A stretch of DNA of 64,000 nucleotides from Blattabacterium cuenoti (lineage in GTDB: Bacteria > Bacteroidota > Bacteroidia > Flavobacteriales > Blattabacteriaceae), in NCBI RefSeq assembly GCF_014251275.1, contig NZ_CP059183.1, forward strand, positions 124,001 to 188,000, written 5' to 3'. The translations under genes and the position numbers were made by a program. The notes under the pieces were generated by a model that saw only the letters and a program-made list of their open reading frames with translations, was not told the origin of the DNA and made no database searches. Positions 2,912 to 48,359 of this stretch are shown piece after piece (position 1 is the stretch's first letter; each line of letters opens with the position of its first letter).

Positions 2912-3412
2912 ATGAAACTTTCTTTTATGAAGAAAAAAATTCATATTTATACAGATGGATCATCAAAAGGGAATCCAGGAATAGGAGGGTATGGTGTATT
3001 TATTGAAATTTTTTATAAAAATTATTATAAAAAAATTATTATTTCGGAAGGATTTCGTTTTACAACTAATAACAGAATGGAGTTATTGGCAGTAATAATT
3101 GGATTAGAAAAAATAAAAAAAAAAAATATTATTGTATTTACTGATTCTAAATACATTGTTAATACTATTCAAAAGGGGTGGATTTATAAATGGAAAAAAG
3201 ACAATTTTTTAAATAAAAAAAATGTAGACTTATGGAAAAGATTATTAAATGTTTTTGATAAAAGGTTCATTTTTTTTCATTGGATAAAATCTCATAATAA
3301 TCATTACATTAATGATTATTGTGATAGACTATCTATAGCCGCATCAAAAAATATTTTATTGAAAATTGACTATACATATGAAAAACAAAATTATAAAGAT
3401 AAAAATATTTAA
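2912..3412 (+). CDS. rnhA: Ribonuclease HI
   Basis: Cuts the RNA strand of RNA-DNA hybrids, removing primers and R-loops. The four acidic catalytic residues are visible: D15 in YTDGSSKGNPG, E57 in NRMELLA, D78 in FTDSKY and D138 in NDYCDRLS. The 166-residue length is close to the bacterial norm of about 155. The annotated ATG abuts the plsC stop; a second ATG at 2927 (residue 6) would leave the core unchanged and is an equally plausible start. The 3' end overlaps the convergent methyltransferase gene by 4 bp. Confidence 0.93.
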   Translation: MKLSFMKKKIHIYTDGSSKGNPGIGGYGVFIEIFYKNYYKKIIISEGFRFTTNNRMELLAVIIGLEKIKKKNIIVFTDSKYIVNTIQKGWIYKWKKDNFLNKKNVDLWKRLLNVFDKRFIFFHWIKSHNNHYINDYCDRLSIAASKNILLKIDYTYEKQNYKDKNI

Positions 3413-4214: not shown

Positions 4215-4636
4215 ATGACAAAAGTGTATAAAATAAATGATATAATTTATATGAAATTAGCTATTGAAAAATCTAAATTTTCTTTGTGTAAAAAAAAAAA
4301 GTAGGATCTATAATAGTAAAAAACAATAAAATTATATCTTATGGATATAATTATTTTCCTGATGAAAATAATTATGTATGTGAAGATGAAAACGGAAATA
4401 CTAAATGGAATGTTATTCATGCAGAAGCATCTGCTATATTAAAAACAGCATCAAATTATTTTTCTTCTTGTAAAGGAGCAACTATGTATAGTACACATTT
4501 TCCATGTAAAGATTGCAGTAAATTGATATATTTATCTGATATTAAAAAAGTCTTTTATTTTTATCCAAAAAAAGATAAAGAAGTTATACTTTTTTTTAAA
4601 AAAATTAAAGTATCAATAAAAAAACTTATTATATAA
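4215..4636 (+). pseudogene. dCMP deaminase family protein, frameshifted at an A11 tract (possibly rescued by slippage)
   Basis: From ATG 4215 the frame encodes 25 residues resembling the deaminase N-terminus (YMKLAIEKSKFSLC), then enters a run of eleven A (4290-4300) and stops at 4302. A frame needing one more A continues to TAA at 4634 with all hallmarks of deoxycytidylate deaminase: VGSIIVKNNKIISYGYN, then TKWNVIHAEASAILK (zinc His and catalytic Glu) and PCKDC (zinc cysteines). The repaired protein is 140 residues, close to the family norm. It would convert dCMP to dUMP, the substrate of ThyA (also in this window). Conservation on both sides of the shift argues against long-standing decay. 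tRNA-Leu starts 5 bp after its stop. Confidence 0.83.
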
Positions 4637-4641
4637 AATAA

Positions 4642-4727
4642 ACCCAAGTGGCGAAATTAGGTATACGCTCTGAACTCAAAATTCAGTGATTTTCATTATC
4701 TTGTGGGTTCGATCCCCACCTTGGGTA
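4642..4727 (+). tRNA. tRNA-Leu (anticodon CAA)
   Basis: A complete type II tRNA cloverleaf of 86 nt. The acceptor stem is ACCCAAG (4642-4648) paired with CTTGGGT (4720-4726), followed by discriminator A. The D stem is GCG/CGC. The anticodon stem CTGAA/TTCAG (4670-4674 and 4682-4686) holds loop CTCAAAA, giving anticodon CAA (reads UUG). The long variable arm forms GAT/ATC (4687-4702). The T stem is GTGGG/CCCAC with loop TTCGATC. CCA is not encoded, so the CCA-adding enzyme (44958-46409) is needed. It follows the frameshifted deaminase by 5 bp and ends 3 bp short of the convergent ureC stop. Confidence 0.97.
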
Positions 4728-12214: not shown

Positions 12215-13012
12215 TTAAATTGCTACATCTCCCTGAATATGAGGAAAAGGATGATAACCTTTTAACTTAAAATCTTCAAAAGAAAATTCAAAAATATTTT
12301 TAACATATGGATTAATAATAATTTTTGGAAGTTTTTTTGGTTTTCTTTTAACCTGAACTTTTACTTGATTTATATGATTATTATAAATGTGAGCATCTCC
12401 TATAAAATGTATAAATTTATCTTCTTTCAACTTTAAAGTTTTTGCTATCATCATTAGTAATAAAGAATAAGAAGCAATATTAAATGGTAGCCCCAAAAAA
12501 ATATCTGCACTTCTCTGATATAAAATCAATGATAATTTTTTTTTACAAACATAAAATTGAAAAATTACATGACATGGAGGTATTGCCATATCTTTTATCA
12601 TTCCTACATTCCAAGAAGAAACTATTATTCTTCGTGAATTTGGATCATATTTGATTTTTTGTAATACTTCATGTATTTGATCTATAAAATTTTTTCCTTT
12701 ATTTGTAGGCCATTTTCTCCATTGCATTCCATATATAGGACCAAGATCTCCATTTTCATTTGCCCATTCATTCCAAATAGTTACTTTATTTTTTATTAAA
12801 TATTTTATATTAGTATCTCCTTTAATAAACCAAAGTAATTCATATATAATAGATCGTATGTTTAATTTTTTAGTAGTTAAAAGAGGAAATCCATTTTTTA
12901 AATCAAATTTCATTTTGTATCCAAAAATACTTTTAGTTCCTATTCCAGTTCTATCTTCTCTTTTTACACCATTTTTTAAAACGTTTTTTAGTAAATTCAA
13001 ATATTGTTTCAT
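12215..13012 (-). CDS. thyA: Thymidylate synthase
   Basis: Methylates dUMP to dTMP using methylene-tetrahydrofolate. The 265-residue protein has the active-site block [12 protein letters not shown] (catalytic Cys), the dUMP-binding [17 protein letters not shown], and [13 protein letters not shown], all in the expected order. The length equals the short E. coli form. It is divergent from prs with a 69-bp gap. The dCMP deaminase that would supply dUMP is frameshifted in this window, so the route of dUMP supply is an open point here. Confidence 0.97.
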
Positions 13013-14625: not shown

Positions 14626-15078
14626 GTGTACGAGGATATTAAATTTATGGAAATTGCTTTAAAAGAAGCTTTTAAAGCTTTTAATAAAAATGAAATTCCT
14701 ATAGGAGCTATAATTATTTATGATAATATTGTAATAGCAAAAGCACATAATTTAACTGAAAATTTAAAAAATGTTACTGCACATGCAGAAATGCAAGTAA
14801 TAAATATAGCTTCTAATTATTTTAACAAAAAATATATTAAAGAATGTACTTTATATGTTACAATAGAACCTTGTGTAATGTGTGCAGGTGCTATAGCTCT
14901 TTCTAAAATAGGAAAGATAGTTTGTGGATCTTATAATGATTCAAAAATAGGATTTTTAAATTATAATATTAAATTTCATTCAGAAACTATATTTGTGACC
15001 GGAATTATGAGAAAAAAATGTCAATCATTAATGAAAAAATTTTTTCTTATTAAAAGAATTGAAAAAAAAATTAAATAA
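14626..15078 (+). CDS. tadA: tRNA-specific adenosine deaminase
   Basis: Deaminates A34 to inosine in tRNA-Arg(ACG). The zinc-deaminase signature is complete: HAEMQVI (zinc His and catalytic Glu) and PCVMCAGAI (zinc cysteines), followed by IGKIVCGSYNDSKIG, typical of TadA rather than cytidine or dCMP deaminases. It has 150 residues. The start is GTG at 14626, 2 bp after the rplY stop; ATG at residue 8 would cut into the first helix, so GTG is preferred. Its 3' end overlaps the convergent dedA end by 8 bp. Confidence 0.93.
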   Translation: MYEDIKFMEIALKEAFKAFNKNEIPIGAIIIYDNIVIAKAHNLTENLKNVTAHAEMQVINIASNYFNKKYIKECTLYVTIEPCVMCAGAIALSKIGKIVCGSYNDSKIGFLNYNIKFHSETIFVTGIMRKKCQSLMKKFFLIKRIEKKIK

Positions 15079-47936: not shown

Positions 47937-48359
47937 ATGAAAAAACTATTGGGAATTGATTATGGTACAGTAATTACTGGTCTATCTATTACTGATGAAA
48001 AACAAATTTTTGCTTTTGGATTAGATGCTATTCCAACAAAAAAATTATTTATTTTTTTAGATTATTTTTTTTCTTATGAAGAAATAGAAAGAATAATAAT
48101 AGGATTGCCAAAAAAGTTAAACAACAAACATGAAAATACAGTAGAAAAATATATTCAAAATTTTACTATAAAATTTTCTGAAAAGTATCCAGAAATTATT
48201 ATAGATAGATTTGATGAACGTTTTACATCTAAAATTGCATTTTTATCAATGATAGAGTTGGGGTTAAATAAAAAAAAAAGAAAAAATAAAAATATTTTAA
48301 ACAAAATAAGTGCTACTATTATATTACAATCTTATATTATGAAAAAAAATAACTCATAA
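47937..48359 (+). CDS. yqgF: Putative pre-16S rRNA nuclease / RuvX-like (YqgF)
   Basis: A 140-residue RNase H-fold protein of the YqgF family, implicated in maturing the 16S rRNA 5' end. Motifs: LLGIDYGTVITGLSITDE at the N-terminus (catalytic Asp), IIIGLPKK, and DRFDERFTSKIA. It precedes def by 3 bp on the plus strand. The older proposal, Holliday junction resolvase, is less favoured for this family. Confidence 0.9.
   Translation: MKKLLGIDYGTVITGLSITDEKQIFAFGLDAIPTKKLFIFLDYFFSYEEIERIIIGLPKKLNNKHENTVEKYIQNFTIKFSEKYPEIIIDRFDERFTSKIAFLSMIELGLNKKKRKNKNILNKISATIILQSYIMKKNNS

Follow-up and report, generated by a model that had tools for sequence, protein, structure and literature searches.

A frame-split dCMP deaminase gene of Blattabacterium, broken at one poly(A) run in most of 49 species and very probably functional

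How can a gene of nucleotide metabolism be split between two reading frames and still carry every motif of its enzyme, and does such a break mark a dying gene, an assembly fault or a frame that is restored during expression? The question is raised by positions 4215-4636 (forward strand) of the window analysed here, a stretch of 64,000 nucleotides with 24% GC from the 594,902-base genome of Blattabacterium cuenoti, an obligate cockroach symbiont, in which open reading frame (ORF) reading places a frame-split dCMP deaminase gene. Its 5' part (4215-4304, forward strand) is read in the zero frame from ATG 4215 as MTKVYKINDIIYMKLAIEKSKFSLCKKKK, contains a conserved internal Met at 4251 and ends KKKK-TAG, with the stop codon at 4302-4304 and a run of exactly eleven A's (A11) just before it at 4290-4300. 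The 3' part (4301-4636, same strand) is read in the -1 frame as counted from the start; it begins with GTA 4301 and stays open for 111 codons through to TAA 4634-4636, encoding on the way HAEA at 4418-4429 (+), with the zinc-ligand His and the catalytic Glu, and PCKDC at 4502-4516 (+), with the zinc-ligand cysteines. The gene is bounded directly on its 3' side by a tRNA-Leu (CAA) gene (4642-4727, +). In four relatives (G006, G012, G022 and G059) the dCMP deaminase ORF extends into the apparent tRNA-Leu gene and ends in a C-terminal ...NPGGEIGIRxGLKIQ.

An earlier note on this DNA had located the frame switch at the A11 run and held that one more A would give an enzyme of 140 residues, and the reading of both frames agrees. 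In silico, adding one A joins the parts in a single ORF of 140 amino acids and removing two A's joins them in one of 139; removing one yields no joined ORF. The run encodes the four lysines of CKKKKVG and stands immediately 5' of the conserved KVG, and because it does so the 29-residue zero-frame product has neither the zinc nor the catalytic motifs and finds no match in a Pfam search.

The frame-joined protein matches Pfam PF00383 (9e-23, 80.5 bits against a curated cut-off of 25), and the HAE and PCxxC-type zinc and catalytic motifs of that class are found in the window and in all 49 species compared. Its closest solved chain is PDB 4p9c, a deoxycytidylate deaminase (1.3e-22), which belongs to the same family by sequence, retains HAE and PCxxC, and has CKRMKVG where CKKKKVG stands here. 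As far as the matches show, the 4p9c/ComEB family is encoded in a single frame in those sources, whereas here the coding sequence is split. The best NCBIfam model is ComEB, at 67 bits under an equivalog cut-off of 219, and a separate TadA-like protein is encoded in the window at 14626-15078. The claim of a dCMP deaminase with intact HAEA and PCKDC is thereby upheld at the level of the family, and specificity for dCMP over tRNA or other substrates is predicted.

A gene newly dead, with its decay pending, would fit the truncation of the zero frame to 29 amino acids and the presence in relatives of dut as an alternative source of dUMP. The sister-species comparison tells otherwise. The earlier reading, that of a real, conserved enzyme broken at A11, had named early stops or radical substitutions in the second half of the gene in sister strains as what would tell against it; among 49 Blattabacterium species genomes, all of which have the gene, the downstream half shows no premature stop in any, and HAE and PCxxC-type motifs (PCKEC, PCQEC, PCEKC and similar) are retained in every one. 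For this half, the upstream part being too short for dN/dS, pairs with both members out of frame at A11 give values of mostly 0.16-0.40, with 0.84 for one pair (G043/G046) that has few synonymous changes; most values for in-frame pairs and for neighbouring genes fall within 0.05-0.5, close to the out-of-frame pairs. On the 5' side of the run a YMxxAIExSKxSxC segment is conserved in most relatives, and in nearly all species the upstream part closes with a conserved SxC ahead of the run. The out-of-frame part of the gene is thus under purifying selection over evolutionary time. The window itself falls among eight deeply diverged species that form a clade and all have A11; between them, amino-acid changes in neighbouring genes reach about 0.7 per site. 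Against open downstream halves, low dN/dS and such a clade, early pseudogenization is a highly improbable reading, and the conservation of the sequence suggests that the frame-split gene is very probably functional.

The state of the run varies across the genus within narrow limits. It is exactly A11 in 30 of the 49 species and A10 in two (G012 and G063), and the in-frame forms of the gene are A12 (nine species) and a run 12 bases long but interrupted (seven species). One species, G062, has a different net -1 break, in which GT is preceded by an additional A and an A10 run comes with a stop in the zero frame; it may be a sequencing error or real decay. A13 was never found at this run among the 49 species. 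A tree built from 12 neighbouring proteins, unrooted and so unable to tell gains from losses of frame, shows at least ten switches between in-frame and out-of-frame states. With exactly A11 in 30 of 49 genomes, and with no genome of the 49 in which the downstream half is closed, the observed break is not chance.

Could the true run be A12, shortened by homopolymer errors in sequencing or assembly? Homopolymers are error-prone, and two older genomes (G062 and G063) may contain errors of this kind, but 30 separate assemblies agree on the same length at one site, and other long runs behave quite differently. In 16 neighbouring genes of the 49 genomes, 108 of about 110 runs of at least eleven A's are in frame and two, both in rnhA, are at breaks; in the dCMP deaminase gene 30 of 39 such runs are at the break (Fisher p about 1e-21 against the runs of the neighbouring genes, with species not independent). 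The break is therefore a property of the dCMP deaminase gene, and a general fault of assembly does not explain it. This control was made run by run because breaks close to the ends of genes are partly missed by tblastn alone, which reported six of those in the dCMP deaminase gene, and only seven broken gene instances among the 16 neighbouring genes in 49 genomes. A tblastn break at the start of a 530-amino-acid ORF of G041, seen in G004 and G019, was set aside as an apparent chance upstream extension unrelated to poly(A).

Among the genes looked at, poly(A) breaks are sporadic elsewhere and the majority state only in dCMP deaminase. In five relatives the syntenic 64 kb hold one further clear poly(A) break, in ruvX (yqgF). 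This gene is intact in the window (47937-48359), but in at least seven of 49 relatives (G041, G008, G001, G018, G045, G052 and G063) it continues as a match in a second frame close to the C terminus, with the break at A13 in G041 and at A12 in G008. The frame of rnhA (2912-3412 in the window) is lost at or close to long runs of A in G013, G020 and G052, and the window's copy has a 12-A run in frame. As a neutral yardstick of length drift, intergenic runs are too few: nine were comparable, of which two are pure in both genomes. With genus-wide recurrence, an open and conserved downstream half and the control on runs in other genes, a sequencing error or a fresh pseudogene is very unlikely.

What, then, restores the frame? 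Because both halves of the gene are intact, the cell probably does so during RNA synthesis, and we consider it likely that the gene encodes a working deoxycytidylate deaminase despite an old, tolerated -1 indel in its poly(A) run, and that it is rescued by slippage of RNA polymerase. The gene has a single net indel in a run of nine or more A's and is otherwise intact. The polymerase would slip on the A11 template and produce a mixed pool of mRNAs, in which those with twelve A's (or nine) would be in frame and would yield the enzyme of 140 or 139 amino acids; on the remaining mRNAs translation would stop at or soon after the run. The length of the run would then probably reflect replication slippage between 12 and 11 together with selection against interruption or further loss. 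We infer slippage as the frame correction, and likewise its efficiency and the supply of dUMP by the enzyme. Re-initiation in the downstream frame was ruled out as a source of the enzyme, as the -1 frame of the window sequence has no internal ATG, GTG or TTG ahead of HAEA.

The identical protein could also be made by ribosomes shifting by -1 on the heptamer A_AAA_AAG (4295-4301, +), which lies in the zero frame with the TAG directly after it. The arrangement fits exactly, with a downstream frame of -1 and a heptamer that is a classical slippery site of the X_XXY_YYZ type known from dnaX. In Escherichia coli dnaX and in some insertion sequences, -1 ribosomal frameshifting takes place at A_AAA_AAG. 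The gene described here shares with E. coli dnaX the identical heptamer and the need for the -1 frame; unlike dnaX, it has no stimulatory structure or Shine-Dalgarno-like element that we could find, and its A11 is longer than such a shift needs. RNAalifold, applied to 18 A11 species over 174 alignment columns, returned no consensus pairs or conserved structure, and the alignment contains no AGGAG-like element just upstream. Conservation of the heptamer is uninformative because its final G is forced by the conserved downstream Val codon, and the TAG is inconstant, the zero frame continuing for several codons in G020 and G022. A seven-A site would tolerate interruption of the first four A's of the run, whereas none of the 33 out-of-frame genes shows any, and a ribosomal shift of -1 would leave the A10 species out of frame. 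For these reasons transcriptional slippage is favoured and ribosomal frameshifting as the main route is unlikely, while the two may work together.

The purity of the run calls for caution as evidence for slippage. Interrupted runs occur in none of the 33 out-of-frame genes and in seven of the 16 in-frame genes (Fisher p 1e-4 before phylogenetic correction), a difference that loses its significance once relatedness is considered, there being at most three informative independent pairs. A second tract weakens the argument further: read from sequence, a PyrE-PyrF fusion ORF (3302-4675 of L042, in G041) holds a pure A10/A11 tract in 41 of 48 species, almost equally conserved while in frame, so that run purity counts for less as evidence unique to slippage. 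The PyrE-PyrF tract sits near the start of the second domain, where slippage could release PyrE alone. Strong slippage also has against it that many runs of at least eleven A's in Blattabacterium genes are in frame, which suggests that the polymerase of this genus may slip less on A11 than that of other bacteria; the argument relating long in-frame runs to a less slippery polymerase comes from PMC1088944.

Restoration may, in principle, precede transcription altogether, if A11 and A12 copies coexist among the symbionts of one host or among the chromosomes of one cell and the A12 copies make the enzyme. In such a phase-variable population A11 and A12 are one step apart, the switching on the tree is frequent, and minorities would be masked in consensus assemblies. 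Mixed DNA is nonetheless improbable, with a consensus of A11 in 30 independent assemblies and A13 absent throughout.

A use for the enzyme is suggested by its surroundings. The window encodes thymidylate synthase (thyA, 12215-13012, reverse strand; an ORF whose orthologue was assigned by inspection of its translation), the presumed consumer of dUMP, and a thyA orthologue lies near the dCMP deaminase gene in 49 of 49 genomes. A search of the window's genome for a thymidine kinase came up empty, so ThyA could plausibly draw on dUMP derived from dCMP, and on family membership a dUMP-supplying role is plausible too. The enzyme is probably useful and need not be the sole source of dUMP, because dut lies on a small plasmid or is integrated in several relatives; its location on a plasmid together with nrdB is described in PMC6039017. 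Of the 49 genomes, 12 have a dUTPase that scores above cut-off, in most cases on a small second contig, and its absence elsewhere means little because most assemblies hold one contig. The dUTPase gene is chromosomal in G005, G048 and G049, at about 139-140 kb and about 5 kb from dCMP deaminase, and in G049 it contains one stop.

Rescue of this type is already known from other insect symbionts. Poly(A) frameshifts of Buchnera and Blochmannia are rescued by transcriptional slippage (Tamas et al. 2008; Wernegreen et al. 2010; as quoted in extracts of PMC3017870, PMC4389277 and PMC5009743), with correction at the run in 12-50% of transcripts of aphid and ant symbionts according to the extract of PMC5009743 citing Tamas 2008, and Blochmannia genomes carry four to eight poly(A)-frameshift genes each (PMC3017870, PMC4389277). 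As far as those extracts describe them, these cases, including B. vafer (PMC3017870), resemble the present one in that an obligate, AT-rich insect symbiont has one indel within a long stretch of A's in a gene that is otherwise intact, selected and conserved between species, with independent gains or reversions. Unlike them, the present case comes from the Bacteroidetes, concerns another gene, was followed across 49 species with at least ten switches and is described at the level of DNA. In Thermus thermophilus dnaX (A9) and in mxiE (PMC1088944) a homopolymer likewise lets RNA polymerase make mixed-frame mRNA, and in mxiE slippage yields the longer product, as is proposed for dCMP deaminase; those sites are programmed and their product is used, whereas no use is evident for the 29-amino-acid product here. 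For the flavobacterial symbiont Walczuchella, the excerpted text of PMC3971599 has its authors suggest that pseudogenes with homopolymer frameshifts may still function, and that excerpt holds no comparable gene or conservation analysis. Our literature search found no report of slippage rescue in Blattabacterium and no paper on Blattabacterium together with dCMP deaminase; judged by their titles, the papers returned for Blattabacterium and transcriptional slippage concern other symbionts or are reviews.

The gene is therefore real, functional-looking and frame-split, and its putative rescue is of a known kind in a new phylum, a new gene and, above all, a new genus-wide breadth. That A11 is maintained throughout the genus as a control, slippage fixing a low and constant output of dCMP deaminase, seems to us unlikely; if true, a bacterial symbiont would have slippage programmed into a housekeeping gene of nucleotide metabolism. 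Because one site can be compared over 49 species with several switches into and out of frame, the question of whether such breaks are tolerated or maintained becomes testable. The gene may be overlooked or annotated as a pseudogene in many Blattabacterium genomes, and its rescue would extend poly(A) slippage from gammaproteobacterial symbionts to a symbiont of the Bacteroidetes.
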